Shown one piece after another: positions 3,401-63,265 of a DNA stretch of 64,000 bases. Every line of letters starts with the position of its first letter. Position 1 is the first letter of the stretch. The stretch spans positions 124,001 through 188,000 of the forward strand of contig WHUX01000064.1 of assembly GCA_015179025.1 (NCBI GenBank). The letters are read 5' to 3'. The notes beneath the pieces are model-generated. The model saw only the letters and a program-made list of their open reading frames with translations, had not been told where the DNA came from and searched no databases. The position numbers and the translations under genes were made by a program. This stretch comes from Terfezia claveryi. Its lineage: Eukaryota > Ascomycota > Pezizomycetes > Pezizales > Pezizaceae.

Positions 3401-5923
3401 CTGTAGAGATCGGATTATGAGGGGCTGACGATAATTCTTGCGACACTATAGTGGAGGGAAAGAAAGCTCAGAGCGACGGGTCAGCCCGGGCTCAGAACCT
3501 GTGCGAGGTGCCCAGGTTAGATTGAACTTATATTGTCTAGATATTGGGAAAGCGAGGACTTTTAAGTACTCGAGGGCTTGTGCCAACCTGAATCTAAGCT
3601 AGTAAAAAGATATTAGCGAAGATGAAGAACAACATGAAAAACCGCATGCAGCGAGTGCTCTGAACCATGAACAGAGTAGTGATTGCGTGTAATACTGAAA
3701 ACAGCAAATAGCTTGAACGAAGCAAAAGGTTAAGGATACTTAGGTATGCTAGCGACATCAACTACCGGGTAACGGGTGACTGGGCATTTATTTACTATCG
3801 TTTTGTTTACTACTAGAACTACGAGGGTGTTGTGCCAGCCAGACTACTACTAGAAGCAATAACAAATGTCTTAAAATGGTAAAGTGCATTATCCCAGTAT
3901 CAAAAATTTCTTTCATCCACTACATATTGCTATCACGATCAGATATATACACCCTAAAATTCATAATGTCGGCATCTCAATCCTCTGCATTATTTGAATG
4001 GTCGCAAACACTAGAGCGATCCTCTCCTTTTGAATCAACCCATACTTCTACCAACTTGAATTCTTCAATAAGACTCTGAATTTCTGCCCTGGAGAATCGC
4101 AAGTATGCTAGACATTCACTGTCCCCCCAACCTGCTTCACCCAGTGACCAATTCTGCCGTTCGTAGGCAACTGGCGCTCAATATCATAGTGGCTCTCTGC
4201 TTGCGGCACCCTCCGGTCCCTCTTCAGGCTCTGCTGTATCCATAGAATGCAGCAGTAGCACCCCCCCCCCCCAGCCCAAGCAGTACTACCAGCTCACCTT
4301 CGAATTCCATGACGTAGAGTTGTCGTGATGACTAAAAATGTTATTATTCTGTATACCGGGTTGTGAAATCCACTTTTCTGGTACTACTAATGCTAGCGCG
4401 TACAAGGTGGAAAAATCCCTCTCCTGTTTATTATTGATGCACTAACTATAGCAATAAACTAATTCAAATAGAAAGATCATATTATGATTATGAAAGAAAC
4501 AGAGGATAAACTAACCAGACTAAGGATATAGTACTTAGGTAAGTAGATACTGAGAAGGTGGAACCGTGGGTGCTGGTGTTGGACTATACATGTCGGTAGG
4601 AGAGCTTGATGGGTTTTCTCTTTGCTATGGCGCCTCATGATTCGCTACGTGTGGTGGGTGATAATGTAAGTATGATATTGTACATCATCAGCAAGGCCGG
4701 TGCCTCAGTATTCGCCTTTGAAGCTACATGCAAACCGATACAAAATACATAGAGACCATGACCAATCATTAGTGAAGCTGACTGTGATATATCGAGATTT
4801 AATTCATTTATTATGCGTGCATATGCTGAAGCTCGGGGTAGTTAATGTAGCAGCAACCTGTGCAGAGTAAACTCAGGGTAACTAGTTTGAAGAGCTTTAC
4901 TTTATACATATAACATACATCTAAAGAAAAAAACCTATTAGTTACTGTATGTAGATTCCCTCCAAACACAGTATTGATATATCTTACTATAGGAACCATA
5001 TTCGCGCCGTTATTACCTTGGGATCGCATCGCGTCGTACAACGCTCGACTCATGCCCAATATCAGCGCCATATTGCTACATATGATAGGCAGATATATAA
5101 GTATTAGCTAGGTACGTTTCCTAGCTTTGTGAGTGAGGTTTTGTATGTAGCGTTGCTCGATGGTATGGTTCGGAAGGCTGTCTAATAACCCTATCGCGGT
5201 TGGTGACGCTGAAATTTTAGATTTGCTTCTAAAAAACCTAAGTGTATCTCAATACCCATTCACCATTTGAAAAGTATAGTATTGTCAATATACAACCTTG
5301 ACACACAAAGATATACCATAATCAAACATACCATAGATCCAATCACTAGGCGTCAAGCGCGTGTGCCTTCAGTTGAGGGTAAACGATCGCAGCCAAGTAT
5401 CTATAAGAAAGGTAAATCTACAAATCATTTGGCTCAAAAACTGGCTGGGATAAACACTACACCATACAACTCATCTGAGGCTCTAGGAAATAATGTGTCT
5501 ATAAACGAATTAGAACTACATACTTGCTCTTCAAGTCTGTATAAAGCAAGTTCTTCACTCAGGTATAGAGTACAAGTTTGTAGATTCTAAAAGTTGTTTT
5601 ACAAGTGGCTGGATTTCAAGAAATCTACCTAGGTAGAAATATGTTACGTTTGGTATCGATATCCCTCCCCCTACCCACCTTAAACAAGCCCTCCCTACAT
5701 AAGTATCAAGTAAACCAAAGCATCTCCCCATCAAGAAACCACAACAAAAGTAAAAGTAAAAATAAAGAGAAAGAAAAAAAAAATCTAGTAAAAACACAAA
5801 CAACATGGAAATGACATTGTAAAATAAATGCAGAGGTATTACTATTAGTTTTTCTTTTCTTTTTTTTTTTTTTGCCTATAAGACAGGTGCAGGTGCATAT
5901 ACAATTTTTGCCGCTGTGAATCA
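3401..5923. other. no gene; probable Copia leader/LTR remnant and AT-rich spacer
   Basis: 3401-3870 lies upstream of the Copia gag start and may be its leader and LTR; two related stretches (TGGCACAA..CCCTCG) occur on the minus strand, but no LTR pair can be demonstrated. 4261-4272 is a C homopolymer. The remainder up to the CWC2 stop is AT-rich without a credible reading frame. One TCAGGGTAA motif lies at 4872-4881. Confidence 0.5.
4872..4881 (+). promoter_or_regulatory. CTCAGGGTAA motif copy
   Basis: One of the recurring TTCAGGGTAA-type sites. It lies in spacer, about 1 kb beyond the 3' end of CWC2. Confidence 0.4.
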
Positions 5924-7241
5924 CTAATCGCTCTCATTATCATCATCACTTCCATACTCCACCAGCAGCCCTTTAGGTGCAGCGGATCCCTCCTCTTTCG
6001 AGACAATATTCACTCTACCATCTTTACTCGCCTCCGAATACCTCTTCAGTGCCTCTAGTGTCGTCTCACTTAATATGCCCCCTTCCGAAGATTCCGGTTC
6101 TACTGGCTTCCCTTCCTCGTCACTATATCCCTCCGTCAAGTACTGAACTTCCCCCCACTTCGATGTCGGCGCCGCTGCCGCCGCCTGCTGAGCCTGTCCC
6201 CTCGCATACCACACCTCCTCCGGGGCCTCATACCCAGCCAACCCAAAACTTCCCTCAACCCTTCTCCTTTTCACACTCTCCCTATCCTTGCCCTCAACCT
6301 CCTTCACAAACTCCTCCGGCAACGCCGCTCTAATCGCCGCGGCCGCCTGCTCCTCCACCCTGCGCTTATCCCTCGCCTGGGCCATGGGATTCGGGTCCAC
6401 CGTCGCCCAGCGCACATTTAATATCTCATTATGGTCCAGACTCTGATGTGCCATTGCCTCCTTTGCAAACTGCGCATTCGCCTCATTCGTATACGTAACA
6501 AAGCCCACCCCCCTCGAATTCAACACTCTAATTCTCTCAATCTGGCCCCACTCGGCAAAGTGTCTTGCCACAATCTCCTCGATCTCCTCAGAGACATGGA
6601 TGCGCCCGATGTAGAGCGTGTGGTTCTGCCGCATGAAGCTTCCCACGCCACCCATGTCGTCGCGGTAGTCGCTGTGCTTGTCGCGGCCGAAGCAGTCAAC
6701 GTTGGGATTGAACAGGTCCGTGACGGTGGGAAGGCGGTGGAGGTATTCGCATTCGTGTCCACGGGGGCACAGGCCCCGTGCAAAGAAGAGGCAGAAGAAC
6801 GACCCGGGGATTCGGTCAGCCCGTGTGTATCCCGAGTCGCGACTGATGGAGCACCGGCCGAGGGCGGGGGATTTGGAAATATACTTGTCTTCGCGGTCGC
6901 CACCGGACCATTTGTTGTACCAGATATTGAAGATGGTGCCCGTTTGTGGGGGGGGGAGGCCACCCTTCCATGTGGCGGGGTCGACCTGGGAGAAAGTATG
7001 TTAGCACAGTGGAGATGGACAGGAGTGGTGAGGTGAATTTGGTGCAGCGTACCTGAGGCCGAGCAGGTCTTCGCTTCTTCTTTACCGTCCTTCTCTGCCC
7101 GCTCTTTTCTGCTCCGACAGCAGCGAGCGCCTCGTCCCCTATTGTCGCCAGGGCCGTGTCGGGGATTGCATCGGCAACCGCGTCGATGATGGCGGAGGTA
7201 CCGGAGGTGGCAAGGTTGGGGGGAGAAGGTGTTGTCGCCAT
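5924..7241 (-). CDS. CWC2: Pre-mRNA-splicing factor Cwc2
   Basis: Two exons, 7241-7053 and 6985-5924, with a 67-bp intron (GTACGC...CCCAG), give 416 residues. Cwc2 belongs to the Prp19 (NineTeen) complex and contacts U6 snRNA near the spliceosome active site. In order: an Ala-rich N-terminus; the torus region with a CCCH zinc finger (C-x7-C-x5-C-x3-H, around FARGLCPRGHECEYLH); an RRM with RNP2 HTLYIGRI and RNP1 GVGFVTY; then a charged, variable tail ending in an acidic patch. The start is the first ATG of the frame that joins correctly after splicing. It is divergent from RBG2 with 353 bp between start codons. Length and domain order match fungal orthologues. Confidence 0.95.
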
Positions 7242-7594
7242 GCTGCCGCAGAGTGTAAGACTATAGGGGCACCTTTGTCCTTTTTGTAGATTCCCTCCTT
7301 CTCCTCCTTCTCGTTCGCTGATTGTCGGCGTATGGAGATGTGGGGCGTGAGCAACAGTCTCAGAAAAACACTAGACGTTTTTTTTTTTTGGTGTTTGGAA
7401 AGGAAGCTGTAGCGCAGGGCCAAGCTGCATGTGGGAAGGCGCCCGCAGAGCCGCATGGCCCCTCCGAACGATCGATCACGGAGAGATTCTGCAGGCAGCT
7501 CCCCATACCCGCACGACGAGGCAGCACAGGATCCCAGACAGAGCGTATACAGACAGAGGCAGAGCTGCTTGGAGTACCAGAGCCATCAGCCATC
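7242..7594. promoter_or_regulatory. divergent promoter CWC2 / RBG2
   Basis: A 353-bp interval between the two start codons must hold both promoters. It contains a T-run (7379-7389) and no obvious TATA box. No TTCAGGGTAA motif is seen in it. Confidence 0.6.
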
Positions 7595-9059
7595 ATGGGT
7601 GTCTCGGAGAAGATCAAGGTGCGTCGTGTGCAGCCCCGGAGACAGACAGCCCAGGCGGGGCAGGCAAGAGCAGCTGGCTGACATGCCTCCGTCGATGCAG
7701 GAGATTGAGGAGGAGATGAAAAGGACGCAGAAGAATAAAGCCACAGGTTCGCCCCGGCCCCGCTGAGAGAGTACGTGGCGGCTGCTAACCGGTCGAGCTC
7801 GAGGATAGAATACCACCTGGGTCTATTGAAAGGGTACATCCGCTACCCCAGATCCCACTTGCCCACTTGCCCACTTGCCCAATGGTCCTAATCCCTCTCC
7901 CCGGTCTCCAGAAAACTCGCCCGTCTTCGCGCGCAGCTCCTCGAACCCACCACTACCGGTGCCGGCACCGGCGCCGGTTTCGACGTCTCTAAATCCGGAG
8001 GTAACCTTATTCCCCCCATTCTCCCCAAACTATGCTAAGCCAGTCGACTAACCCTCTCCCAGACGCCAGAATCGCCCTCGTCGGCTTTCCCTCCGTCGGG
8101 AAATCCACCCTCCTCTCGAAAATCACCAAAACCAAGTCTGAAGTCGCCGCCTACAGCTTCACCACCCTCACCGCCATCCCGGGCGTCCTCGAGTACGGCG
8201 GTGCCGAGATCCAAATCCTCGATTTACCCGGAATCATCGAGGGGGCGTCGGAAGGAAAAGGTCGTGGTCGCCAAGTCATTTCCGCTGCAAAAGTATCCCT
8301 CCCTCCCCCAAATCCGAGTTCAGGGTAATGTTAGTATATGCACCAGAAACTAGATGCTAACGTTTCCTATAGACCTCTGACCTAATCATGATGGTTCTCG
8401 ACGCGACGAAAAAAGCAGAACAACGTGCCCTCCTCGAAGCCGAACTCGAAGCCGTCGGAATCCGCCTCAACCGCACCCCACCCAACATCTACCTCAAAGC
8501 GAAAAAAGCCGGCGGCATGAAAATCACATTCACCTCTCCTCCCCTGCACCTGTCGGAGAAACTTATCTCGTCCATCCTCCGCGACTACAAACTTCTCAAC
8601 TGCGAGGTCCTCGTCCGCGACGAAGCCGCCACCGTGGATGACTTTATAGACGTGATTATGAAAGACCACAGAAAGTACATCAAGTGCTTATACGTCTACA
8701 ACAAAATCGACTGCATCTCCCTCGAACATCTCGACTCGCTGGCGCGAGAGCCGCATACAGCCGTGATGAGCTGTGAGCTGGATCTAGGTGTGATGGATGT
8801 GGTTGATCGGGCGTGGGAGGAGTTGGCGTTGCTAAGGGTGTATACGAAGAGGAAGGGCGTTCAGCCGGATTTTAGTGAGGCGTTGATTGTCCGGGGGGGG
8901 AGCACAGTCGGCGATGTCTGTGACCAGGTGCATAGGAGTTTGAAGGAGAGCTTTAGGTATGCGCTGGTATGGGGGAGGAGTGCTGTGCATGTGCCGCAGA
9001 GAGTGGGGCTTGGGCATTCGGTGTGTGATGAGGATGTTATCAGTATTGTGACGAAGTAA
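7595..9059 (+). CDS. RBG2: DRG-family GTPase Rbg2 (DRG2 orthologue)
   Basis: Six exons (7595-7618, 7701-7746, 7809-7833, 7912-8000, 8063-8292, 8373-9059) give 366 residues, the usual DRG2 length. DRG/Rbg GTPases bind ribosomes with a DFRP partner (Gir2 for Rbg2) and help translation under stress. Visible: N-terminal helix MGVSEKIK..., G1 GFPSVGKS, G3 DLPGIIEG followed by the diagnostic [10 protein letters not shown]4 NKID, and a C-terminal TGS domain ending [20 protein letters not shown] and [14 protein letters not shown] favour DRG2/Rbg2 over DRG1/Rbg1. The first three exons are only 24, 46 and 25 nt. Intron 5 (8293-8372) holds a TTCAGGGTAA motif at 8319. All junctions keep phase. Confidence 0.95.
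8319..8328 (+). promoter_or_regulatory. TTCAGGGTAA motif copy inside RBG2 intron 5
   Basis: Exact 10-mer, the only copy found within a gene body; it is in an intron, not an exon. Confidence 0.35.
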
Positions 9060-12702: not shown

Positions 12703-13504
12703 GTAATCCAGGGTTGATGGTTGACGGAAAAAAAAAAAATGTTGGCAGATGATCATTGAACCCAATAGCAGGGTCTATGCACATGGGAGCATGTACAATT
12801 AGGGATAACGATATGAACAGGTGCCAAAGGTTTTTTTTTCTACTGGTCTTAAATTCTACGTCCGTTTCAGTGCGTTCATAGCTTATTTTTTCCTTACGGT
12901 ATTTTGCCTATATCATGCGCCTTTTTTTTGCTTCGTTTCCTTTGGGGGTTTAGGGGGAGGGGGCGCGAATCGCTATTTTTTTGCTGATAGTCTCGTCTCG
13001 GGGCTGGGGAAACTTTTTTTTTTCTATTTGTTAGTCTGGATTAATTCTATTTTTATTGTTTTTGATCTCCCTCCCTCCTCCCCCCCCCCAACCCCGGGCC
13101 GGCGGTTTAAACTTTTTTATTTTGTTTGGTAGTATTCATCTTGTTTTTCCTATCATTGTGGTTTTTTTTTTTTTCCTATTCTCGCTAGGTGGGGTTCGGG
13201 GTGTAGGGGAGTGTGGTGCTATGTATCGATCGGCAAAGTGGGTGGGAAAGCCAGTATATTGTATATATATGTTTTTAAAAAGGATCAGTGAGTTTCATAA
13301 TTTGGCTTTGGGTGTTTGTACTTGCTCGTCCAAAACTAACGTGAGCTTGGATAAATTGGACTTGTCAATGAGAATGCTATCGAGAAAAGAGCTTGGAACC
13401 AAATTATATATATATGTGATCATTACAATCTATCAGGGTAATTCGCTCCTGCTCTTCGGACATATCGAAAAAGGCAACCTCAATTGTATACTTCTCTACC
13501 TCAA
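12703..13504. other. convergent 3' spacer PEX13 / GH5
   Basis: T-rich 3' flank with long T and C homopolymers (13081-13089 C, 13151-13164 T). It carries one ATCAGGGTAA motif, 64 bp from the GH5 stop. No gene. Confidence 0.6.
13432..13441 (+). promoter_or_regulatory. ATCAGGGTAA motif copy between convergent PEX13 and GH5
   Basis: Matches nine of the ten consensus bases (first T replaced by A). It lies between the two 3' ends. Confidence 0.4.
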
Positions 13505-23532: not shown

Positions 23533-23590
<58 letters not shown>

Positions 23591-23960: not shown

Positions 23961-24187
23961 CCCGCTTATCGGAGATTAGGTCTACGTTGAGGGTAATATA
24001 TCATATGGGAACATGACCACACTAAATCCTTCTTCTTCCAAACTAACTCTCCCCTTTCTCAGGTAGTTAAATCTCCCCCTTATTCAATAACAAAAAACCA
24101 TAGTAAAATACTTAATATATTACTTCCCGTTTCCCTTACTTCTTTACATAAACAATCTATCCCTATACATTCACAAACCCTCTCAAT

Positions 24188-25080: not shown

Positions 25081-25814
25081 TGTCGTATCGTAAAACTGAA
25101 CGATTCGACCTAACGAACGGTCAATCGGCATTGCCCAATGAAGCGAAGCTGGGCCGAAGGCCAATGCGTAGATGAATGACTTGACTCTATTTACTACCCT
25201 AGTGAGCACCGCCACCCACATATCTGCACTGAACTGTCTTGATCTAGGTTGACGCTTGTATATAGAAATTACTATACTTTGCATTAAATATATTTTGATG
25301 TAACTTTAGTATTTATTCAAATACAATAGCAATAACTTAGCTACTAAATTTTGAATCTATTTTTCTCCCTAACTTCCTATATAAGGTATTATATCTACTC
25401 TATGTAAGGAAGTTGAGTTAATATAGGTATGAATTGATGATGGATACAATATAGAAATACTTGCGGTGAATAAGAGGCAACTTCCTAGGCACTATGGGAT
25501 TTCTAGGCATTGTAGTTTTTAGGCACTGTAGTTTGTTAGAATAATAGGAAAGAAAATAACTGTTGTGAAGGTGGAAGATTCAAACTGGTATGGACTTTAC
25601 CCTGAACTTGGAGCCTCCTTGCAACTCTTGGCACACACCTACAGTAAACAAAACCATAGTAAACATGTACAAGTAACCCTTTTCATCAGGGTACGATACC
25701 GAGGCCCGTACCTACCTGCTTATGTAGAAGCCACTCTCCACTCACCCTCACCTCACCCCTCTCACCAATACCTCCTCCCCCACCTCTCATAAACACACAA
25801 AGCAGAATATCCCC
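25081..25814. other. spacer HNH relic to MRX11-like gene
   Basis: No gene. AT-rich with short repeats (TAGGCAC(T) near 25487-25530). The MRX11-like promoter is presumably here, with one motif copy 209 bp before its ATG. Confidence 0.5.
25597..25606 (-). promoter_or_regulatory. TTCAGGGTAA motif copy upstream of MRX11-like gene
   Basis: Exact 10-mer on the minus strand. Confidence 0.4.
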
Positions 25815-26547: not shown

Positions 26548-26921
26548 GTTCGGGAAGGAGGGAGGGGATGAAGGAGGGGTTTGGGTTATTTATATGAGCG
26601 GTGGGAGAGGGGAAGTTTGCTTATACATGGTCCCAAGTATGAGCTATTGTTTGTCCTGCTCAATTCAGGGTAACCCTCTCTCTCCTCCTTTCCCAACACA
26701 TCACAATATTAGTCCCTACTTTATTCCATGAAATAATCTCTATCAATCCAAAAGAGAAGCTCACACGAACCACCAAGCTAGATATTCCTGGCATGATCTC
26801 TTAAAAACCATGAATTTATTTTCTATATTTCATTTCATGTAATCCCCACAGAAAACACGATTCATCATGTACCTTTTTTTAGATTCACCATTCCTCCTCT
26901 GCTCAATCATCCCACTCCCAC
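26548..26921. other. convergent 3' spacer MRX11-like / GUS1
   Basis: A 374-bp interval between two stop codons, with one motif copy and no gene. Confidence 0.6.
26664..26673 (+). promoter_or_regulatory. TTCAGGGTAA motif copy between convergent MRX11-like and GUS1
   Basis: Exact 10-mer, nearly centred between the two stop codons. Confidence 0.45.
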
Positions 26922-31507: not shown

Positions 31508-31517
31508 TTCAGGGTAA
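31508..31517 (+). promoter_or_regulatory. TTCAGGGTAA motif copy
   Basis: Exact 10-mer, 409 bp past the PQ-loop stop. Confidence 0.45.
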
Positions 31518-31926: not shown

Positions 31927-31936
31927 TTACCCTGAA
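31927..31936 (-). promoter_or_regulatory. TTCAGGGTAA motif copy
   Basis: Exact 10-mer on the minus strand, between the PQ-loop gene and MRPL19. Confidence 0.45.
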
Positions 31937-32117: not shown

Positions 32118-32127
32118 TTCAGGGTAG
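32118..32127 (+). promoter_or_regulatory. TTCAGGGTAG motif variant
   Basis: One mismatch at the last base. It lies 338 bp past the MRPL19 stop. Confidence 0.35.
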
Positions 32128-32464: not shown

Positions 32465-33329
32465 CTACTTCTTCTTTCCCTGCCATCCTGCCCCACCTCC
32501 ACCAGCCTTCTTCACCGCCCCACTCCTCAACAATGCCCTCTGCCTCACATATGCCGCCACAATATTCTGCACACTACCCATATCCTTCCCTTCCTTCCTA
32601 AGATAATACAATCTCGCCCTCCTGGCCCTCTTCCGCGCGCGTTGCACGATATCCACCCCTGCCACATTCGGGTTATAAAGCTTGACCCACATCTCTACCC
32701 CGACTCGGGTGAGTTGGTTCCGGAGGAGCAGAGCCGAGTCGACGCCACGCCGGCGGAGCTGCAGAAGGACGCCGCTGAAGGGGTCGCGGTGGGAAAACCG
32801 GATCTGGAGAATGTCCCCCGCACGTAGGCCATCGCGGGTACGGGAGAGGAGCCGCGACTTTGTTTGCATAGGGTCGAGGGTGAGAAGTTGGAGGGTAGTG
32901 AGTGCGGAGAGTGGGGATTGGGGAGGAGGAGGGCCAGGGGCGGGGAGGATAGGGATTGTCTTTGGGGGGGGGAGAATCACTTGTGGAGGAAGGATGTTAG
33001 TGGAGGTGATTGACTGGGTGGGGAAGGGTGGATAGCTTGGGGTGAGGTGGGGTTGGGAGGGGGGGAATACCTTTGCCGTGGAAGCTACCAGGGGTGGATC
33101 GCCGGGTGGGGTGGATGTCGTATGGGTGGATGGGGATGTTGCTGCGGGGGCCGGAGGAGGAAGGGGATGTGGCTGCTGATGTGGCCATGGTACGCTGGTG
33201 GAGGAGGGGGGTAGCTTTAGCTGTTGCTGCTCCTGCTGCTGCTGCTGCTGCGGGGGGGGTAGGCATGAAGAATGTCCGCCAGCAGCAAGCCCGGGCTGCA
33301 AGCGGGCGGAGGGAGGGGGGGAGGGACAT
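32465..33329 (-). CDS. MRPL19: Mitochondrial large-subunit ribosomal protein bL19m
   Basis: Exons 33329-33071 and 32979-32465 (91-bp intron GTATTC...CACAAG) give 257 residues. bL19m sits at the interface of the mitochondrial ribosome subunits. The N-terminus MSLPPSLRPLAARACCWRTF is an Arg-containing mitochondrial presequence, followed by an Ala/Pro-rich linker encoded partly by a CAG-type repeat (33233-33251). The conserved domain is GDILQIRFSHRD, FSGVLLQLRRRGVDSALLLRN, GVEMWVKLYNP and RRARLYYLR. The start is the only upstream in-frame ATG giving a presequence. It is divergent from the gene at 33698 with 368 bp between starts. Confidence 0.92.
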
Positions 33330-33697
33330 CGCGGTGGAGTGCGGTACCGTGTATCCCCCGATGGCAATCCAATCAGCGGCTGTGGGTGGTGCTGAAGTCC
33401 ACGGCGAGTTTTGGTTTGGTGGAGTGGGGAGAAATCCGAATCTCAAGCTATGCGGGCGCCGCCAAGCGCAGACTAGCCCGGGCCTGCCCTGGCGAAGAGT
33501 TTGAATTTTCTCCACATTCTCCGCCGTACCTGCAGCAACCATCGCCAATCGCACAGCGACTTCGCATCTTGACGGAGGCAAGGAAAGAAGCAGGGAAAGA
33601 AGCAGGGAAAGGAGCAGGGAAAGAAGCAAGGAAAGGGGGATCGAAGGATAGGACAAGAGATACCGGTACTGTGCATCCTCGACAAACACTTATAGCC
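33330..33697. promoter_or_regulatory. divergent promoter MRPL19 / unknown mitochondrial gene
   Basis: 368 bp between start codons. It contains an imperfect 12-bp tandem (AAGAAGCAGGGA type) at about 33579-33637. The plus-strand frame is open through this region back to 33272, but the repeat-derived, low-complexity sequence argues against translation from upstream. Confidence 0.5.
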
Positions 33698-35320
33698 ATG
33701 GCCGCTGCACTGCGGATCATCACCATGCGCAGCAGCATCGGGAGGGCCATACGGCCGTCAATTGCCATTGCTCAGCTGCAGATACGGACGTCTCAGGCCC
33801 TACGGGCCTTCTCCCTCAGTTCCCCCCACCTAAAGAACTCCATAGGCACGTCCCCCGGTGTCCCCTCCCCCCCGGCCAAAGCAAAACCAAAAACCAAAGC
33901 AAAATCAAGAGCCAAAGCAAAACCAAAAGCCAAAGCAAAATCAAAAGCCAACCCTTCTAACAAACCCCACCCTCCCCCCCCATCAAAATCAAAAGCCAAC
34001 CCCTCTAACAAACCCCACCCTCCCCCCCCAGGTCCCCTTCCTACCTTCAACCCCACCTCCTCGCAAGAGCTCGACTCTCTCCTCGCTCAATTCCGCAAAG
34101 AAATGTTCACCGAACCCCACCTGCTGGAGCGTCAGCGTCTCCTCACTCACAAGAATAAAAACCACCACCTCCTCGAAGAAGACCCAATCTACTTTCCCAT
34201 CGGAGATCAAACCGTGCAGGTAACACCTAAACTCGTACACCACAAGTTCGCACGGAAAAAGTTCTCAAAGGCAGTGCGGATGATGAATGTTCCATCTGAC
34301 TTTGACGCTATTCCAGGGTTGGTGTTGGGGTATACGCAAAGCGGGTCGAAGTTGCTGAATAAGAACATCTCCTTGGCCGTGCGTCGAGCGGGACTTACCG
34401 GCCGCGCGGACGTGTTAAACAGAATCTTGGAGCAGGCGAAGCATAATGAGATACATATCCCCATGTCGATTGCGAGAGAGGGGTTTAGGGGTTTTATTGT
34501 GACGGCAAAACTCCCCTCGAAGCACTCAGTGATTAAAGCCGTCAGGGGAGCCCGCCATCTTAGAGACTTACTGGGGAAACAAGATAACCTCGTGCTGGGG
34601 CGATACCAGTCCGCAGCGTCCATACAGTCGAAAGCAGGGAAGACGCAGAGTGACACTCAGGCTGAACTTGGCCCGGAACCAGTTAAAATCGCGAAGGACC
34701 CGGTGGGGCTGGGGACGTTGGCGGGGCTTACGAGTGAGGCGAGCAGGAGGTTTAATGGAGGACTAGACCATGGGGGGTATACGGCGTGGTATGTGAAGAA
34801 GGTGTTCCTGCCGGAGAGTTGGGACAGCATAAAGGATGAATATGGGAAGCAGTGGGAGGCTCTCTGTACGCCCAACTGTAGAGATACAGAGACTCGAGAG
34901 GTCTTCTACAACCGCATAGCCACAATCAAAGATTTAGGCGTCCTCATCGACTCTTTCAAATCCGCGGAAGAGGTGCTTAGCAAAACAGCAATCTACATCC
35001 TTAACACCCCCGTATCCGAAATAGATACTTCCCTCTTCAACTCTAAACATGGCGTGACGGAGGTGAATATCAAAAACCATGGGATTGAGGCTGGAAAGTT
35101 AGCAAAGCGCTTGAAAACAGAGATTCCGATTATGGAGCAGAGGCTGGATAAGTGGGTCGAAGTTATGGTCGGGGATGGGGGCAAGTTGATGAAGTGGAGT
35201 GAGACGGAGACGAGGACTAAGATGGAGGGGACGAGGAAGATGTATGAGTTGGCGGCTGGGGAGTTGGTTAACAAGGGGGTGGGGTTGGCGAAGGCGGAAA
35301 GTGGTGAAAAAGGTTTATGA
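33698..35320 (+). CDS. unknown, probably mitochondrial protein
   Basis: Single exon of 540 residues from ATG 33698. Not assigned to a family. The N-terminus (MAAALRIITMRSSIGRAIRPS...) is Arg-rich and lacks acidic residues, as in mitochondrial presequences. It is followed by a Lys/Ala-rich low-complexity tract (AKPKTKAKSRAKAKPKAK) and a duplicated 15-residue block (KSKANPSNKPHPPPP). The folded part starts near residue 125 (LDSLLAQFRKEMF). It is largely alpha-helical with phrases that recall helical-repeat RNA-binding proteins (LAVRRAGLTGRADVLNRILEQ, IPMSIAREGFRGFI), but no canonical PPR motif is certain. The head-to-head position with MRPL19 suggests a shared role in mitochondrial gene expression; this is inference. 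Confidence 0.8.
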   Translation: MAAALRIITMRSSIGRAIRPSIAIAQLQIRTSQALRAFSLSSPHLKNSIGTSPGVPSPPAKAKPKTKAKSRAKAKPKAKAKSKANPSNKPHPPPPSKSKANPSNKPHPPPPGPLPTFNPTSSQELDSLLAQFRKEMFTEPHLLERQRLLTHKNKNHHLLEEDPIYFPIGDQTVQVTPKLVHHKFARKKFSKAVRMMNVPSDFDAIPGLVLGYTQSGSKLLNKNISLAVRRAGLTGRADVLNRILEQAKHNEIHIPMSIAREGFRGFIVTAKLPSKHSVIKAVRGARHLRDLLGKQDNLVLGRYQSAASIQSKAGKTQSDTQAELGPEPVKIAKDPVGLGTLAGLTSEASRRFNGGLDHGGYTAWYVKKVFLPESWDSIKDEYGKQWEALCTPNCRDTETREVFYNRIATIKDLGVLIDSFKSAEEVLSKTAIYILNTPVSEIDTSLFNSKHGVTEVNIKNHGIEAGKLAKRLKTEIPIMEQRLDKWVEVMVGDGGKLMKWSETETRTKMEGTRKMYELAAGELVNKGVGLAKAESGEKGL

Positions 35321-37494
35321 AGAAGAAAGGGGGAGGAGTAGGGAGAGGTGGAGAGGGAAAGAGGGTAGCGGATATGGGATTGCGATGTGAGACTTGAATA
35401 AGGAAGCGGGGGTGTATGTATATAAAGCATTTATATCTCTCTGCTCTTCAGGTTACAAAGTTAAAAGCCAATAGCATGAGTTTTAATCCACTTCACCATC
35501 CTCCTTCAGGCCAAAGAAGATAGATGTCGCTATAGTTTAGTTTATATCAACCCACAAACCAACGTCGCCCTGCTTGAAAATTATGCCACTAAGGCCGAGC
35601 GGAACATCGAAGTTTCGGGGTACCTACAGCATTCTACATTACCCTGAGCCTTGCACATGGAACGACCTAACCTCCTAACTTTCATATGTGCAACCACCCC
35701 GGCCCTGCCTCTCTCAATTCCCCGGGGGTATTGTTTACGCCTTCTAGTCCTCCTTGATGTCTGAGTCAACTGGCTAACCACAGAAGCCATCCCCGTGGCC
35801 ATTCCGCACCCATCAAAATCCCCCAAATGAACCTATAGATGGATTTGCCTCTGACGAAAAGATAAACCAGGATGTAGACTCCTGTGTATTCTGCAACTTT
35901 AGCAAATATATTCAAATGACGACATCCTCACTCGCATCTTGTACCCGTGATATTGGAGAATGTCAATACCCCATGGGGATATTACTGTTCTGATCAGTAT
36001 AGTGTGGAGATCTTTCTCGTGCCTGCTGTCTCGGGCAGAAGGAGGGGCAATAGGCGTTTTGCGTATTCTTTGCACCCCCCCAAGCCCGTGCATGTTCATA
36101 GGGTGTTTGTCCCCGTGTTGCCCGATTGATCCGCCGCATTAACCACCTTACCATCAATCGATTTCCTTGCTGCATTGGTGAAGCAGAGTATAAGAGGCGC
36201 ACTCATTCGCCTGCCTTTAACACACCTATATTCCTCTTCCTCTTCCTCATCATCGTCTTCAATATACATCACCCTCTTTCCATCAAATCTGCCTCTCATA
36301 TTCCTATATTCCCCAATTTCCCTTTCGTCATTTCCACAATCAGAAACCATACCCTTTTTCCTAATTTTGCCCCTAACCCTAAATTCCTCCACACCCTCAT
36401 CTTCGGCAGACACAACGTTTACCCAAGGGAACTTCTTTTTTCCACTCATCCTTCCGCTGACACTCCTATCCTCCCTTGGAGATAGAAGCAAATGTTTATC
36501 TTCATTTGGCAAGTCTGGGATGGATGTTCCAGATAGATTGCATCCTTGCTTCACTTAACTGATTTACAGGAATCCAGTAAGGCAATCGGTCAGGTAGGAT
36601 CATGTTTGGGTGTACTTATATACAATAGTTACGAGTTCAGATTGGTTGCCCAAGTACATGCTCTTTTGTTCACACCTGGTACAAATACACAGTCCCTTTC
36701 AAATAAGATTGATTATGAAGTAAACAACCAGAGCAAGAACGAGGCAGTGCTTGGGTCTTAGTTTCTAAATTATGATATAAAAGACACCTATATACCCCTT
36801 CCTCTCTGTGCAACCAGACTAGCAGTCTTTTAGCAATCGTTCGATCGTAGCTCACTCAAGGTCAGTAATGTTCCTACAACTGATAGTTCTTGTTAAGTTT
36901 AGTATATTCGGATCGGATACTCATCCATCCCTGCCACTGGAATTTGGTCTCGTCCAAGTCGTCTGCTGTTCTGGAACACACGAAACGGTACTCCTAGGTA
37001 GTAGTACTGTTTGCTGGGGTTACCCTCAACTCACATTAGTTGCGAATCCCGGTTCGAACAAAATAGCAAAGACATTACATGAATCGGTTGCCTAGCCAGT
37101 CAAGCAGCTTTTCGTACGAATGATATAGACACTCCATATTATGAATGGTGACCCTATGTCTGGCATCGAACTCATAAAACGCCCTTCCAGTCATGTTTAT
37201 TGACCTTTTGTGCATTATATTGTTGAAGCCTAATGAATCCATGTTTCGAACTGGTGCGGAGTTCTCCCATTTTATATATAGAATTCAATTTTGTGTTTGG
37301 GAGTCTACATTGATGTTAGGTAGATAAACAGCAGGAAGATGTCAGACCGTGGGTTCTGGTTTGGCGAAAAAGCTACAGGAAAAACAACAGGAACATGAGA
37401 AGTGGAAGATCAATACTACTACTACCGGTCCCATGGGGTAATTATTAAAAGCTCGGCTGTAATGCAACGGCTATTGGAAGAAAGGAGTGTATCA
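35321..37494. other. spacer between unknown mitochondrial gene and helicase relic
   Basis: 2.2 kb without a convincing gene. A 152-codon minus-strand frame (36096-36554) is acidic and basic by turns but is complemented by equally long plus-strand frames, and no family is seen. One motif copy lies at 35639. Confidence 0.45.
35639..35648 (-). promoter_or_regulatory. CTCAGGGTAA motif copy downstream of the 33698-35320 gene
   Basis: One mismatch at the first base. It lies 319 bp beyond the stop codon. Confidence 0.35.
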
Positions 37495-41358: not shown

Positions 41359-42337
41359 ATTCCAGAGTAGGTGTTGGAATCAGGTGAGATAAAGTGGGAC
41401 TTGCACTTGTGGGTTTAGTTATGGCGAGCCTTTATATCTCTTTTGTTTTGTGTCACTTAGACTTGAATTTACTTTCTGTTTTATTGCGTTCGATGTATTG
41501 GTTGTGCTAACATTTTTATGTCGGACGTGGTGTTTTATTATATCTGAGTTTATTCAGTGGAGAATGCTTGTGGAGTGAGATGTATACTATACAATCATGA
41601 ACAATATAACTGTATTAATTGAGTCTTACCAGAGTTTACATTACAAGTAGTAGATGGAATCGCGGCGTCGTTTTCATCCATCTTCGGCCAATAGTGACAT
41701 ATATCCCTATAACACATATCCCTATACTTATGGAGACCAAGAAAGATCTAAAATGCCGGCAATACTATTCAGGGTAAAACTCATCAGATAGGCTCCACAG
41801 TTTAGATAATATATAAATATAACAGCTCATGGATAACAAACACGAGAACTTCCTGTGAGACCCGGCAACTGCAGCTCGGTTGCTATGTTGAAACGTTCAA
41901 GAGAAGGAGGATAGATGTGAAGGTATGTGTGTCGTAGAGTCCTTCTTTTTCTTGCCTCCCGAAACCTTGGTTTGTTTTATAGTGCTCCTATAATGTAGGT
42001 TAGGTGTTTCAGCTAAAAGCAAGAATGTATTCAGGTGTAGGCATGTAAACTCCGAAAAAAAGGTGCACGTAAGCAAGTAGAACACAAACGGACAGGTATG
42101 CATGTATATTGTACATATATAGTACACGTTATACTTAGAATTGTAATTGAGACAAGTAAGCAGCTGTTTCTCGTTCCTAGTCACAAGCCTGCGGAATCCC
42201 CGGACTAGGCCGGATGAGCGCTCATAGTATACTTGCACTGGTGGAACGGGTACCAGTGCAGAAGCTGCCTATCAGTATCTCCTTTTTTTTCTTAACCTAC
42301 CAGATACTTAATCTCCTCACACTACTATATATTCTCC
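41359..42337. other. convergent 3' spacer DAL1 / RPC17
   Basis: 0.98 kb, AT-rich, no gene. One exact motif copy. Confidence 0.55.
41768..41777 (+). promoter_or_regulatory. TTCAGGGTAA motif copy between convergent DAL1 and RPC17
   Basis: Exact 10-mer, 410 bp past the DAL1 stop. Confidence 0.45.
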
Positions 42338-51420: not shown

Positions 51421-52221
51421 GCCTCCCGACGAGACCACGTTGGGGGGAGGGGCTAATGAAGATTTCGTGATTCAAATAAGGGGTAGCTACGTTCCGATTA
51501 CTTGGGATTCTGAACTCTACCCGCATCGTTTTGGTTAATCATTCTAAATCCGAAGACCCGTGACCCGAGCTCCTCCTAACACTTTATTCTGTTTTTTCTT
51601 CCCTTTCTCTATCCACATATTTCCGTGTTGTATATGCTTCCATAATATTTTAGTCTGATGATATCCCTGTACTCACGGTAGAATTGAAGTTAATTATTTA
51701 ATTAACGCTCTGAAGGGGTGATTTTCACAAGCTTGATACAGCCTGTCATCGTTGTTAGTTAACCCATGGCAGAAAATCTCGTTTGTAAGAAGTCAAGTCG
51801 TGACTCGGAAAAATAATAAGTGGTACCCTGAATAACTTGAGTAAAGTGATCCTTAATTTTAGCCAAAGATTGATGGTTAACATGCTGATAACGTTCTGTT
51901 GGTATCATTCCCGGGGAGGGGGGGGTTGCGGGTGCATAAGTAATGAATGACATTGACTTGCCAGTGTTGGCACACCTTTTTTATTCCAGTTTCCTTGGAG
52001 AAAAAAACCTCGTTGATAGGGCGAGCCCAAAAAATGGTATATACATACACACACACTCTCAACCCCATAATTCCTCTAGGTTGAGGAGAAAAAAAAAAAA
52101 TTTTACACCCGTATAACCCATGCATCGACCACTGATGAGATGATGGCCGAGGGGGTATATATATATATGTATATAATATCACAGACCATCGAGTGCCCCC
52201 GCCCCTTTTTAAAGGGTGAAT
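51421..52221. other. convergent 3' spacer F-box-like gene / ETF beta
   Basis: 0.8 kb without a gene. It carries one motif variant, and ends in TA-repeats (52160-52178) and A-rich tracts. Confidence 0.55.
51823..51832 (-). promoter_or_regulatory. TTCAGGGTAC motif variant between convergent F-box-like gene and ETF beta
   Basis: One mismatch at the last base. It lies 391 bp beyond the ETF beta stop and 403 bp past the F-box-like stop, nearly central. Confidence 0.4.
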
Positions 52222-53533: not shown

Positions 53534-53543
53534 CTCAGGGTAA
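53534..53543 (+). promoter_or_regulatory. CTCAGGGTAA motif copy upstream of ETF beta
   Basis: One mismatch at the first base. It lies 328 bp before the ETF beta ATG. Confidence 0.35.
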
Positions 53544-53831: not shown

Positions 53832-53860
53832 TTTTTTTTTTTTTTTTTTTTTTTTTTTTT
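53832..53860. repeat. 29-base T homopolymer
   Basis: The direct repeat GACTTAATTT lies on each side (53816-53825 and 53866-53875), separated from the T run by GTATGC and CGCGG. Confidence 0.85.
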
Positions 53861-54528
53861 CGCGGGACTTAATTTTCAGAGGTAAGTAATGCCCAAGTCA
53901 TAAAAAAATATTTATTTAATGGCAGGAATTCTCCAACTGATAACTTGAGAAAGGAAAAAGATGCATAGCAATATATAGTACCAAGTACCAGCACCGAGTA
54001 ATCCCCAATCCAAGTTAAAAAATAAAAAATAAAAAAAATGCAATCCACACCAACCATTCCATCCAAATCCAATCACATGAATTCGAGAAACCCAAGATAA
54101 AATAAAAACGCATAAAATTACAACCATATAGTCAAGTAGAGAAACGAATACTCATCCATCAAACAAGAACAGCGAATAGGAACAAATGGCCAAATGGCCA
54201 GCCGCCAGAAATTGCAATCCAATCCAATAAAAACCCAAACCACCAAACCCAACAGAATAAAGAGGTAGAGTCAAAAGAAAAACATCCAATGAAATATCCA
54301 CAACGAAAGCATATAAAGCCCCCCCACAATCATGGCAAATCATTCAGGTCCCAGCAAGATATCTGATTTATCAGTTCCTTTTTCTCTACGTGATCAGAAA
54401 AAATTGAAACAAAAAACTCCACAGCATGCAAGACCTTTATACCAGTCTCTAGCACGTCACATCTTCACCATTCCTCCACCCTACCCCGCCACCCGCCACC
54501 CGTCCTCCCACAAGCATCGACATCTCGC

Positions 54529-58900: not shown

Positions 58901-59278
58901 AAATATCAAGACTGAAGCAGCAAAACGTTGGCTGTTCCACATCCTGGATATCCATTGAGACGAAACACGCCGATTTGCCTTGGAAAGGCCTGGAAGTCAT
59001 AAGACCTGTAGTCCCGGTCCGCCTGCACTTAGGATCCTAGTGTGCCAAATATTAGGAACCCTAGTACCGCATGGAACTGCACTTAGGTGCCTAGCTTCAA
59101 AGGATCCCGTGAGTACTTATACCCCACCGGCTGCCCTGCTACCCTCCCGGTACCCAACGGCCGCAGTGTCACTGCTCTTTCGCAGATTCGCCTCTACAAT
59201 TCGGTGTCGTTCGCCAAAAGCTAGACTGTCATTGCTTCCAATATACCAGCAGCTCCTCAATTCCACAATGCCCACTGC
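55948..59278. other. largest spacer, NSE4 to OAT pseudogene
   Basis: 3.3 kb with no convincing gene. It contains a direct 15-bp repeat (GTGAGGTTGCGATGG at about 56884-56913) beside a G-rich stretch, and CATAC/TATG-type simple repeats. No motif copy. Confidence 0.5.
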
Positions 59279-60003
59279 ACAGACTTACCAAAGTGGCATC
59301 CAGCGTGAAGTTGGCATTGTCGTTCCAGATGATGGCTATCTTTCCAGGGTGCATGCTCTCTGCAAGGAGTCTAATGTCCTCTTAATCTCCGACAGGGTCC
59401 AAACTGGCATCACCAGAACCGGCAAGCTTCTCTGTTGTGAGCTCTGGTGTCCGTCCAGACATCGTGCCTCTCGGAAAGGCTATCTCTAGAGGTGTATACC
59501 AAGGCCTAATACCCAGTTTCTGCGGATAAGGACATCATGCTTTGCATTGGGCCAGGCACCCACAGTTCTACGTATGGTGGAAACCCTCTTGGATGTTCTG
59601 TGGCCATTGCCGCATTGGAGGTTGTCAACTTATCAGGAATGAGAATCTCACCGAGAGAGCAGAGACTCTCGGGCAGAGGTTCAGAGCTGGCCTAAACTCT
59701 ATCAACTGGTCACTGGCAGTGGTCAGAGGCAAGAGTCTTCTCAATGCCGTACTTGTCGATGAGTCTAAGCTCAATGGGCACACCGCCTGAGAGCTGTGCT
59801 TATTGTTAAAGAAGAAGGGTCTTTTGGCTAAGCCAACACACCAGAACATCATTCGCCTGGCTCCCGCACTCGTTATCTCTGAGGCTCAGATTGATCGTGT
59901 TATTGAAATCTCTAATGAAGCTGTGAAGGAGCTTCCATCTATGAAGGCGGAGGAATTCTGTGCTCATGGCCACCATGAGCAAGATGTCAACATCGACGGC
60001 TGA
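59279..60003 (+). pseudogene. ornithine aminotransferase, truncated and frameshifted
   Basis: Blocks match the C-terminal two thirds of ornithine aminotransferase in order: [29 protein letters not shown], then the PLP-Lys region [47 protein letters not shown], and KKGLLAKPTHQNIIRLAPALVISE. At least three frame changes and an in-frame TGA (Trp position after NGHTA) break it. The PLP-domain N-terminal third is missing. No introns separate the blocks, so it may be a processed copy or a fragment of an intronless gene. It is a dead second copy; the functional gene must be elsewhere. Confidence 0.85.
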
Positions 60004-61680
60004 TTTCCCTAGCCTTGTCGGTACGTACCTTTTCGGGGGCGGTTTTCGTTGGGAGATACTGCATACTGCATTAATCCGGTGTTACATACAATACTCTTCT
60101 TTTCCCATAAAGTTGTTTGGGGAGGCGGAGGGTTGTTTTATTGGGATTAAAGGGATGCTCTGGATTGGCTTTTATTCAACCTTCCTTGCGGGGGACTTGG
60201 CTGCTAATTTTACGGCACCTGCATCATATGGCCCATAGCTTTTCAGCTCTCCAGTTGTGTTTTGAGTAGGCACAGTAACTACTACCAGCACAATATTTGG
60301 CTTGAGCCGCCCCTTACCTGCCTTTACCCTTCACTCCTTCACTCCAGCCCTGCTCTTCCATCTAACCGGAGCAACGAGACGCACCGTCAACGGCACAATT
60401 CAGAACTGTACATGTCACCACAACGGCTTACTCCGCATCTGTGAAAATTTCACTGGAATTACTTCAACTCTAATTTATGAGATAGAATGGGAAGTGCTCA
60501 TAGTAATGCATAGTGAACGATAAACTTGTGCTCCATTCGAATATCAAACTTTTTTGGAATTCGAAGATGCAAGGTAATGGGAGCCTGAAACAGTGGCCGG
60601 AAGATATTTGCTTAACTTAGCACTCACCATAATATGGACCACAAACAGAGTTTCATCTTCGATTCAGTCCCTTAATTAAGTGCTTACCTACTATGAAATC
60701 ATCGGATCAGAAATCTAGTTGGTCTTTCCTATGCAATGGTGATCCCATGGGGCAGGTATTGCATGTTAGGTATTGCATGTAATTCTAGGCCTATTTTGGT
60801 GCTGTTTTCCCAGGCCTGTTACAACTATCTCAACAAGGAAGGGCGATAAAACAGAAACGATAAATGAAACACGGAACTCAAGTGTACATACAACATGGGA
60901 GAACGAAAAAAAAGCTGGCTTGTCAAAAAGACAAACCCGAGCAGAAACTCAAGCTTCACGTGGTTTTAAAAATGGGAGAAACTCCGTGATTGATACTCGT
61001 AGGTTTGTTTGCTTTTTACGGTAAACATCAGTGGTATGAGATTGGGCACGTCGAGACAGGGTCCTCTAGGTACAAAGTCCTCGAGCCCTTCACATGAATG
61101 TACAAGTACTGACACATGTGCGCCCGAAACCCGAAGGGGCCTCAGATAAATTATGCATTGCCCTTTGTTTTTTCGATTCGGCCTGTTGAGGTATGCGTAA
61201 CAAGTACATATAAGTAGAGGTACTTTCATGTGCATATATTTGAGTCATCCACAGGACTCGAGATCATACGGGCAGAGAAGTGGGAAGCAGGTATCTTTTG
61301 GAAGCAGTCGTTTTCTTGACGATCATGCAATAATTGAACTAAAAGAATCGCAACTTTGGCAATGCTTCGAAGTATCTAGGTGTTTGATTTCGTGACGGCT
61401 TCTTGCTTTACCACTTGGTATGTATGGTACGGTACATAGCTACCTATCTACCTAGTTTCTTTGGAGAGGGGGAGGGTGGGGTGGGTGGGGTGGGAAGTGA
61501 GACAGGTCTGGCACAGGAACCCCGAGGAGGAAAGGGGTTACAATATTTTCGACATACCGGTATGTATCTAGAGTAGAGAGTTGCTACATACCTCAGAAAC
61601 TATTTATTTTCCCTCAGGTTTTATTCCCAGCGTTACTATACACCCCCCTTCGCCCCCGGCACAACCCATATCAAAAGCCA
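60004..61680. other. spacer OAT pseudogene to HTH fragment
   Basis: 1.7 kb, no gene seen. Confidence 0.5.
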
Positions 61681-62040
61681 ATGTCAGAGTCCGCCAACAG
61701 CGCGCCGGATCCAGCAGTCCCCGCTATCGAGCTCGAGCAACCTACAACCGGTACTGCTCCCCCCCGCGCAGCAGCAAAGGCAAACTCCCGGCGACGAGAA
61801 ATGTCCGACATGGAGAAAGGGATGATCATCGCCTACCACAACAGCCAAATGCCGATCAGCAAGATCGCCAAATCCGTCGGCCGAAACTGGCAGACAGTCA
61901 GAAGCTTCCTAAACCGCTACGAGACCCGAGGCACATATGCAAATGCCTCCAGATCCGGTCGTCCAAAAGGCCTGACACCGCAACAGGAGGATGCGGTGGT
62001 TAAGTTTGTGAAGGAGAATCCGAAAGTATCGAAGGATAAG
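61681..62040 (+). CDS. HTH-domain protein, apparently first exon only
   Basis: A 120-codon frame from ATG 61681 encodes a disordered N-terminus and then a homeodomain-like helix-turn-helix of the Tc1/pogo or psq type (MSDMEKGMIIAYHNSQMPISKIAKSVGRNW, TVRSFLNRYETRGTY, SRSGRPKGLTPQQEDAVV). It ends at a good donor, KDK followed by GTATGT at 62041. Downstream there is only low-complexity sequence, and no second exon with a DDE domain could be found before BNA1. It may be a transposase N-terminus cut off by rearrangement, or a domesticated DNA-binding exon with a distant partner. A possible short exon near 62861-62950 (NARVREDAPWPPERGEAQ) is speculative. Confidence 0.5.
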
Positions 62041-63265
62041 GTATGTTGGGATTTTTTATTTATTTTTATTCTTTTTATTCTTTTTTATTCTTTTTTTTTA
62101 TAAATATTATGGGGATAGGAAGTGCAACCCCCCCCAAAAAAAAAAAAATAAAAATAAAAATAAAAAACACTGTGGAAAAAAGAAAAAGGTTAAATTAATG
62201 CCATTTGGATGTTGCTACGGGGGGGTTGCCTAGGTCCTGTCGAGTGTTTTTCCAGACCTGAAGTTATCTTCAGCGACTTTGTATAGAGTCCTCCGGGGCA
62301 AGGGGATTCGCAAGTTCAGAGTGCAAGCAAGGAAAAAATGCTAAACAGCCGCGCGGGCCGAGGGGGGGGGGGGAGAGGGAGGTGGGGGGAGTGAACACGT
62401 GCTATATACAGTATGTGTTTGGAGGTAATGCTATTGAGAACAAATGGGTGGTTTATAAGTATAGTTAAGTTAGGTTAACGAGGAAAAGAAGCCAAGACTG
62501 GACGTATTATTAAATTATTGAGAAGGCTCCCTCGGTTTCGGTTTCTTATGGTCCGTTGACGTAAGCTGTATCTATGCGTCATGTATTGATCCCCTTGATG
62601 TCTCCTCCCACCCCCCCACCCCCCCGCCTCTAGAACGTTCCGTAAATCTAATCTAGTTCAGGGTAAACCACACCACTTTAATGGGATATACCTACAAAAC
62701 ACATCTCGATCATCTGTATATATAAAAAGATAAACCCCCACCCCAAACACTTACCCTTTTTCTTTTTTTTTTTCCCCGGGGGGGGGGGAAAACCAAATCA
62801 TAGTACAAGGCTTGGGGGTGCTTAGATATTTGAGAGTATTGCAGCATTAAACAAGTACAACAAAAACGCTAGGGTACGAGAGGATGCGCCGTGGCCGCCA
62901 GAGAGAGGGGAAGCGCAGGTCGAAGTAGATGAGGGGAACGAGAATAAAGTATCCTATATTTTACATACATGTACATATTTATAAATATGCATATATACGT
63001 ATATATCTCAGCGCGTGGTGCCGGTGCCTCGGGCACAAACCACACCTCTTCATGTAGCAGTATTCGGTCAAAATATCATACAGCCCCTTGCTTCCCCAAA
63101 AGGACAATTGAGCAATCCAAACAAACAAAAGTTCGAGATTATACCCAACCATACGCCCAAGCACAAACACAGATTCGTAAACACCAAAACTATTCACAAT
63201 CCAAATGCCTCAAATAAATCCATCATCCCAAATTCCCAAGCAAAACCTCCCACCTGTTACCGCCC
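62041..63265. other. spacer HTH fragment / BNA1
   Basis: 1.2 kb rich in A, T, C and G homopolymers (62088-62099 T, 62362-62374 G, 62780-62790 G). It has one exact motif copy and no clear gene. Confidence 0.5.
62657..62666 (+). promoter_or_regulatory. TTCAGGGTAA motif copy between convergent HTH fragment and BNA1
   Basis: Exact 10-mer, 600 bp beyond the BNA1 stop. Confidence 0.4.

Follow-up and report, generated by a model that had tools for sequence, protein, structure and literature searches.

The window, a stretch of 64,000 nucleotides from the desert truffle Terfezia claveryi, carries 11 exact copies of the 9-mer TCAGGGTAA, all at the positions reported in the initial annotation. Copies in convergent gene pairs occupy the PEX13/GH5 interval (13433..13441, + strand; Pfam Peroxin-13_N and Cellulase), the MRX11-like/GUS1 interval (26665..26673, +; tRNA-synt_1c, with the MRX11-like ORF lacking a Pfam match), the PQ-loop/MRPL19 interval (31509..31517, +, and 31927..31935, -; PQ-loop and Ribosomal_L19), the DAL1-like/RPC17-like interval (41769..41777, +; Amidohydro_1 and RNA_pol_Rpb4) and the HTH gene/BNA1 interval (62658..62666, +; HTH_29), where the BNA1 call exceeds the window and the name is that of the earlier annotation. 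The PQ-loop/MRPL19 interval had been credited with three copies; it holds two exact ones and the one-mismatch form TCAGGGTAG at 32119..32127 (+), a copy previously placed at 32118. The F-box-like/ETF beta interval (51539-52221; Pfam ETF, left gene without a Pfam match) contains no exact TCAGGGTAA, only the one-mismatch form TCAGGGTAC at 51823..51831 (-), where it had been located correctly. The earlier statement that every convergent pair carries the word therefore holds for five of the six named intervals.

The remaining copies lie in more varied surroundings. Two are found behind stop codons, at 4873..4881 (+), approximately 1.05 kb behind that of CWC2, with an uncertain left-hand gene, and at 35639..35647 (-), approximately 320 bp behind that of the gene at 33272-35320, with a doubtful right-hand gene (36096-36449). 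The copy at 25597..25605 (-) takes a promoter-like place about 215 bp upstream of the MRX11-like gene start, and that at 53535..53543 (+) precedes the ETF-beta start by about 330 bp and follows the stop of NSE4 (Pfam Nse4_C) at a distance of about 990 bp. The copy at 8320..8328 (+) falls in a predicted intron of RBG2, between the predicted exons 8044-8292 and 8373-9059. In addition, the variant TGAGGGTAA occurs at 5374..5382 (+), some 545 bp past the CWC2 stop, and at 23988..23996 (+), about 1.1 kb behind the stop of a Per1-domain gene.

The abundance of the word far exceeds expectation. In 100 dinucleotide shuffles of the window, the mean count was 0.72 and the largest 3, so that none reached 11. 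Genome-wide, 4,942 copies were counted against 449 for the reversed word, and the variant TGAGGGTAA was likewise enriched (2,527 against 640). A 264 kb sample, consisting of the 64 kb window and 200 kb of contig C1, contained 38 copies of TCAGGGTAA. With predicted exons excluded, 36 remained, against 1.3 expected there from a third-order Markov model. Because the C1 stretches were picked after the C1 site list had been seen, with 100001-160000 (one listed site) omitted, this sample is richer in sites than average. None of the 11 window copies lies in a predicted exon, as had been claimed; the two exonic copies of the 264 kb sample, both on C1, compare with 0.25 expected, and avoidance of exons relative to base composition is therefore unsupported.

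The base preference around the word corresponds to the motif T[C/G]AGGGTAA, in which the GGGTAA core is invariant. This core is typical of Reb1 sites in distant yeasts. The flanks preferred in the truffle are of neither yeast type: the fission-yeast-like TAAGGGTAA (603 copies against 1,421 for the reversed word) and the budding-yeast-like TCCGGGTAA showed no enrichment genome-wide, and the budding-yeast-type flank CCGGGTAA was not preferred (250 against 665). The truffle genome encodes a protein with two Myb stretches that aligns closely with yeast Reb1 proteins in a 13-protein alignment, is 95% identical to Reb1 of T. boudieri, and matches S. pombe Reb1, its nearest solved structure (PDB 5eyb), with an E value of 6.5e-33. 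The Reb1 Myb-associated domain (Reb1_MybAD, PF21559) was detected in it at 28.7 bits (cut-off 27) and has a single match in the genome, at 31.6 bits. Judged by its sequence, the protein is clearly a Reb1 orthologue, with a conserved DNA-binding part and, apparently, a single gene copy. Another Myb protein or a zinc-finger factor might bind the site instead, the GGGTAA likeness being coincidental. Such an alternative would suit the unusual flank preference and the 16 Myb-domain matches in the genome, one of which was examined; the presence of a single conserved Reb1 and a core shared with distant yeasts make it rather improbable.

Equally relevant is whether the copies belong to mobile or repeated DNA. 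Some do: a family starting with GGTTTGAT accounts for 12 rows among the matches listed, an inverted-repeat family with CTAATCAATAC for 9 of the 31 sequences shown, and satellites on contigs C361 and C456 also contain copies. Overlapping neighbours aside, however, the 38 sampled sites share no flanks, and just two of them (C1 65416 and 94578) have a match elsewhere in the 264 kb. The flanks of the window copies are unrelated, which rules out a repeat origin for these and leaves transposons or other repeats as a very unlikely general source of the word. A special pair spacing of about 90 bp, prompted by close pairs on C1, was also considered and rejected. Pairs numbered 17 at 75-105 bp and 22 at 175-205 bp; both classes exceed the roughly 5 expected by hand estimate, and the sites are therefore mildly clustered with no favoured spacing near 90 bp. 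Some of the close pairs lie in the C361 and C456 satellites.

The relation of the sites to convergent gene ends was assessed by random placement. When 11 sites were placed in the non-exon DNA of the window, at least five of the six named intervals were hit in 0.06% of trials and at least six sites fell inside them in 0.09%, a post hoc result since the convergent idea arose from the same window. On the 200 kb of C1, 3 of 25 non-exon sites fell in confident convergent intervals (P = 0.71) and 3 of 9 such intervals held TCAGGGTAA (P = 0.53), rising to 5 of 9 when TGAGGGTAA was included (P = 0.11). As the C1 result is at chance level, presence in every convergent gene pair is not a general rule. 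Across window and C1 together, 7 of 14 confident convergent intervals contained a copy (P=0.018), and the fraction of all sites in the 264 kb that fell in convergent space was no more than borderline (P=0.09; p=0.054). Site density was 3.85-fold higher in convergent than in divergent space (p=0.034, 264 kb). The strict gene set omits the convergent HTH/BNA1 pair because its second gene extends past the window.

A preference for gene 3' sides was found in the same 264 kb, on which home-made gene models were used: 21 of 30 near-gene sites lay on 3' sides (p=0.017), or 26 of 36 with TGAGGGTAA added (p=0.0043). At distances up to 1 kb from a gene end, 24 sites were counted on 3' sides against 7 on 5' sides, convergent sites being scored for both genes. 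When frequent 9-mers were ranked by 3' bias alone, TCAGGGTAA came 23rd of 56, with mostly simple runs above it. The initial annotation had reported no exact copy in three divergent promoters, which was borne out, although this absence says little because two of the gaps measure just 90 bp and 5 bp in the gene models used. With either gene set, divergent space as a whole was the intergenic class poorest in sites (0.075 and 0.086 per kb). These observations bear on the possibility that the word is a Reb1 site serving a general chromatin factor wherever DNA stays open, promoters included, with the 3' bias being small-sample noise. Budding-yeast Reb1 is described as a promoter chromatin factor (PMC2897762), five sites precede start codons by 143-365 bp, and the convergent excess is absent on C1. 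Against this stand the sparseness of divergent space, all of which is promoter, the 24 to 7 distribution near gene ends and the inward word bias described below, so that a general factor of this kind, while possible, appears unlikely.

The orientation of the sites narrows the alternatives further. Both strands are used equally genome-wide (2,452 and 2,490 copies), and 12 of 15 non-convergent 3' sites are antisense to the upstream gene, a count in which two neighbouring pairs were scored site by site and the HTH/BNA1 convergent site at 62658 was entered as 'same'; with neighbouring pairs scored once, it becomes 10 of 13 (p ~0.09, by hand). Many sites lie behind stop codons, as would a 3'-UTR RNA element or a poly(A) signal. 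Yet the distances from the stop codon range from 67 bp to more than 1.4 kb and the word is mostly antisense outside convergent pairs; strand use rules such an element out, and this is the least credible account.

Around the 38 sampled sites, GC skew changes sign from +0.093 on the left to -0.099 on the right (Wilcoxon p=0.008), the difference being positive in just 23 of 38. Furthermore, GGTTT, a word biased to 3' UTRs, points to the site from both sides genome-wide (208:119, p = 1e-6, and 197:146, p = 0.007), although these counts are blurred by repeats. After repeats were removed by eye from the printed rows, with families collapsed to one, about 83 of 100 and 81 of 100 rows remained, as did 22 of 31 displayed sequences; scaled accordingly, the left test gives approximately 172:96 (p 4e-6), while the inward count of 197 is without this screening. 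The local GGTTT result is not independent, because the word was chosen after the local sample had shown its bias, and TTGTT, tried as a strand marker, did not point consistently inward around the sites. Beyond the AA end of the site, runs of A or T were seen; they were set aside as a signal because they accompany a minority of sites and are common in 3' regions generally. Taken together, skew and word bias suggest that transcription runs towards the site from either side, with modest effects. Replication termini would be expected to show a skew flip too, and the sites might mainly be fork barriers or termini, as for S. pombe Reb1 at rDNA, with transcription not the main target. The antisense orientation of 12 of 15 sites and the description of S. 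pombe Reb1 as a polar fork barrier (PMC5368702) would fit. This is nonetheless improbable, since some 5,000 sites would be far above the need of such a genome and replication gives no direct account of a bias that tracks a 3'-UTR word.

The explanation we favour, with somewhat less than even confidence, is a Reb1-family site in intergenic DNA that would serve mostly as a 3'-side roadblock or boundary. The word would form the core of a putative site, roughly R-T-T-[C/G]-A-G-G-G-T-A-A, which the truffle Reb1 (Myb/SANT) may bind at thousands of places. Once bound, Reb1 would chiefly be a stationary block separating transcription units, halting read-through RNA polymerase II, keeping DNA open and perhaps forming a polar fork barrier as well, and a minority of sites would work at promoters, as in budding yeast. 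The initial annotation had proposed a Reb1-like termination or boundary element. Intergenic enrichment, the GGGTAA core and the Reb1 orthologue agree with that proposal, which has to give up its universal link to convergent pairs; the termination or boundary role itself is partly supported by the 3'-side preference, the sparse divergent space and the skew and word tests, within the limits of modest effects and home-made gene models. Pezizomycetes are an early branch of filamentous ascomycetes. A more speculative extension, which we consider doubtful, is that their Reb1 is a genome-wide boundary factor whose thousands of polar sites catch converging transcription, with gene ends rather than promoters as the main place, and whose global role is older than, or independent of, the takeover proposed for budding yeasts.

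The exact string TCAGGGTAA occurs in 184 papers, and the 20 of these that were listed look unrelated judging by title; no report of such a site in Pezizomycetes or filamentous fungi was found in the titles and abstract openings covered, most subscription journals lying outside that coverage. A truffle with thousands of Reb1-like sites, if confirmed, would make the history of Reb1 and Cbf1 testable from outside the yeasts, and would reveal whether the Reb1 roadblock at gene ends is a general means of separating neighbouring genes.

Several known systems offer points of comparison. Reb1 Ter sites of S. pombe, the rDNA terminator and polar fork barrier, have an AGGGTAA core like that of the truffle and belong to the protein with the nearest solved structure; they differ in that TAAGGGTAA is not enriched in the truffle. 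Mammalian TTF-1, acting at Sal-box terminators, has another DNA site and is described at rDNA. Nevertheless, this Myb/SANT protein is a related terminator and arrests forks as well (PMC5368702), and Reb1 itself is described as a roadblock of RNA polymerase I (PMC12366685). In a study of nucleosome maps from 12 yeasts, Reb1 was proposed as a global chromatin factor that emerged within budding yeasts and replaced Cbf1 (PMC2897762). Budding-yeast Reb1 sites, at which the protein works as a promoter chromatin factor and an RNA polymerase II roadblock, resemble those of the truffle in their GGGTAA core, the conserved DNA-binding domain of their protein, thousands-scale intergenic use and a possible global role; in the truffle, by contrast, TCCGGGTAA is not enriched and divergent space is the poorest, not the main place. 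The likeness extends to gene 3' ends, as budding-yeast Reb1 is described as enriched behind some poly(A) sites, where it limits antisense transcription (PMC7618759). That case is presented as linked, in tandem gene pairs, to a promoter lying downstream, whereas in the truffle the density of sites is highest in convergent space.

The recurring 9-mer TCAGGGTAA, which carries a GGGTAA core and was read as a putative Reb1-family site, was confirmed in 11 copies at the places where the initial annotation had located them in the window, compared with a mean of 0.72 in dinucleotide shuffles (n = 100), none of which reached 11. Both one-mismatch copies were also present, at 32119 and 51823. With simple runs and triplet repeats set aside, it was the top over-represented 9-mer of the window. 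The excess over background held genome-wide as well (72.6 Mb, 794 contigs), with 4,942 copies, split 2,452 to 2,490 between the strands, versus 449 for the word read backwards; since the genome mean is about 4.4 copies per 64 kb, the window is rich in it. For finer analysis, a 264 kb sample was formed from the window and two stretches of a comparison contig (C1:20001-100000 and C1:160001-280000), with gene models from a simple gene finder self-trained on this sequence. Its 38 copies comprised 36 outside predicted exons, versus 1.3 expected from a third-order Markov model, and 2 within them versus 0.25 expected; these exon counts are too small to indicate avoidance relative to composition. The palindrome-like AGCCCGGGC was likewise over-represented in the window (6 versus 0.16 expected).

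Upstream of the word, A was preferred at position -2 (20/38 sites) and a purine at -1 (33/38), while position 0 held T in 25/38 and G in 0/38; beyond these preferences, the flanks of the sampled sites shared no relatedness. The one-letter variant with the highest local enrichment was TGAGGGTAA (11 versus 1.8 expected in the sample), which was also enriched genome-wide (2,527 versus 640). Neither the fission-yeast-like form TAAGGGTAA (603 versus 1,421) nor the budding-yeast-like form TCCGGGTAA (250 versus 665) was enriched across the genome. Some of the listed TGAGGGTAA places recur as mirrored groups of four whose spacing is almost identical between two contigs (C1:155954-157364 and C9:110058-111466), resembling copies of a single element whose ends are inverted. 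Furthermore, inverted pairs of TCAGGGTAA are held by two repeat families that look like small inverted-repeat mobile elements, one with GGTTTGAT...CTTCAGGGTAA (C46, C57, C168; pair distance roughly 320-500 bp) and one with CTAATCAATACTCAACTGGTTT (C46, C51, C68; roughly 900 bp). Satellite-like arrays of AAACCAGCGTCC units at C361:18480-19198 and C456:14049-14767 contain several copies and also show mirrored halves.

Most named genes of the window were backed by Pfam, namely CWC2-like (Torus/RRM), RBG2, PEX13, GH5, GUS1, PQ-loop, MRPL19, ETF beta, NSE4, a DAL1-like amidohydrolase, an Rpb4-like protein, isocitrate lyase, the HTH gene and Per1; the scan, which left out BNA1, gave no match for the MRX11-like ORF, the F-box-like ORF and three further ORFs. 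In the first gene set, TCAGGGTAA density per kb was 0.285 in convergent (15 copies), 0.176 in tandem (11) and 0.075 in divergent space (3), with 0.147 in introns (2), 0.024 in exons (2) and 5 copies past the outermost genes. A stricter set gave 0.331 (8), 0.172 (16) and 0.086 (3), respectively, the convergent share versus all intergenic space reaching p = 0.054. The convergent-to-divergent density ratio was 3.85-fold (p = 0.034), or 3.97-fold with TGAGGGTAA added (p = 0.011). Where a gene lay no more than 1.5 kb away, its 3' end was the nearest gene end for 21 of 30 sites (49% expected, p = 0.017), and for 26 of 36 with TGAGGGTAA added (p = 0.0043). Start codons were found 143-365 bp downstream of five sites. 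Gene 3' sides in the sample were also strongly enriched in A/T, C/G and triplet TAG runs, A8/T8 runs numbering 252 on 3' sides versus 74 on 5' sides.

The initial annotation had placed the word in every convergent gene pair and proposed a genome-wide termination or boundary element. Within the window, five of the six named intervals held an exact copy, as in 0.06% of random placements, and one held none. On C1, from which the idea had not been drawn, universality failed: exact copies occurred in 3 of 9 confident convergent intervals (P = 0.53), holding 3 of 25 sites (P = 0.71), and TGAGGGTAA raised occupancy to 5 of 9 (P = 0.11). Across the full 264 kb, copies were present in 7 of 14 intervals (P = 0.018), which took in 8 of 36 sites (P = 0.09); adding TGAGGGTAA brought the counts to 9 of 14 intervals (P = 0.003) and 11 of 47 sites (P = 0.04). 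Thus, TCAGGGTAA is common between convergent genes, yet neither universal nor exclusive to them, and most of the convergent signal is carried by the window.

Strand composition changes across the site. GC skew on the motif strand, over 200 bp each side, was +0.093 on the left (G > C) and -0.099 on the right (C > G), a difference that reached significance across the 38 sites (Wilcoxon p = 0.008) but was positive at only 23 of them. A G-rich word merely lying in a G-rich strand would not be expected to produce this sign flip, whereas transcription converging on the site would, as would a replication terminus. The pentamer GGTTT, sense-biased behind stop codons (50 versus 13), was biased in the same direction: genome-wide and with repeats contributing, sense exceeded antisense 20-50 bp to the left (208 versus 119, p = 1e-6; near 172:96 after by-eye repeat removal) and antisense exceeded sense 20-50 bp to the right (197 versus 146, p = 0.007). 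In addition, behind genes outside convergent pairs, the word was antisense to the upstream gene in 12/15 cases (p = 0.035), or 10/13 when two pairs of neighbouring sites were each taken once (p about 0.09).

A six-frame search located the Reb1 Myb-associated domain at one genomic place, C312:105397-105615. Among the 16 Myb-domain matches of the genome, the Reb1 comparison covered this one; its reading frame contains two Myb stretches and matched the S. pombe Reb1 structure (E = 6.5e-33). Its nearest public relatives among the matches listed were from Terfezia boudieri (95% identity), Tirmania nivea (80%) and Kalaharituber pfeilii (58%), which points to a Terfezia or a near relative as the probable source of the window. 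When 13 complete or partial Reb1 proteins were aligned, the Myb stretches were closely similar across truffle, budding yeasts and S. pombe. Among the 120 matches listed, many of them nameless and with 39 more hits beyond them, the named relatives came from Pezizomycetes, budding yeasts and Lipomyces-like yeasts; none named from Aspergillus, Neurospora or other leotiomycete-group fungi was seen among these partly nameless matches, and Reb1 may be lost or much altered there.

The DNA behind rRNA genes is the classical place of Reb1. In vitro, Reb1 is described as halting RNA polymerase I about 15 bp ahead of its site, inside a T-rich stretch (PMC12366685), and in S. pombe as a polar fork barrier that arrests polymerase I from the opposite side (PMC5368702). 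In budding yeast, it is reported to be enriched, in a defined context, immediately downstream of poly(A) sites and to limit antisense transcripts (PMC7618759). Based on the Reb1 orthologue, the shared core and the 3' bias, the main role of TCAGGGTAA would most likely be that of an intergenic roadblock or boundary, with a minority of sites probably acting as promoter sites; we infer both Reb1 binding and termination. Work on 12 yeasts led to the proposal that Reb1 turned into a global chromatin factor inside the budding-yeast group (PMC2897762); a Pezizomycete with thousands of Reb1-like sites would place a global role outside that group. Compared with known Reb1 sites, the protein family and the core of the truffle site are already known, whereas its flanking preference is shifted and it leans to gene ends.
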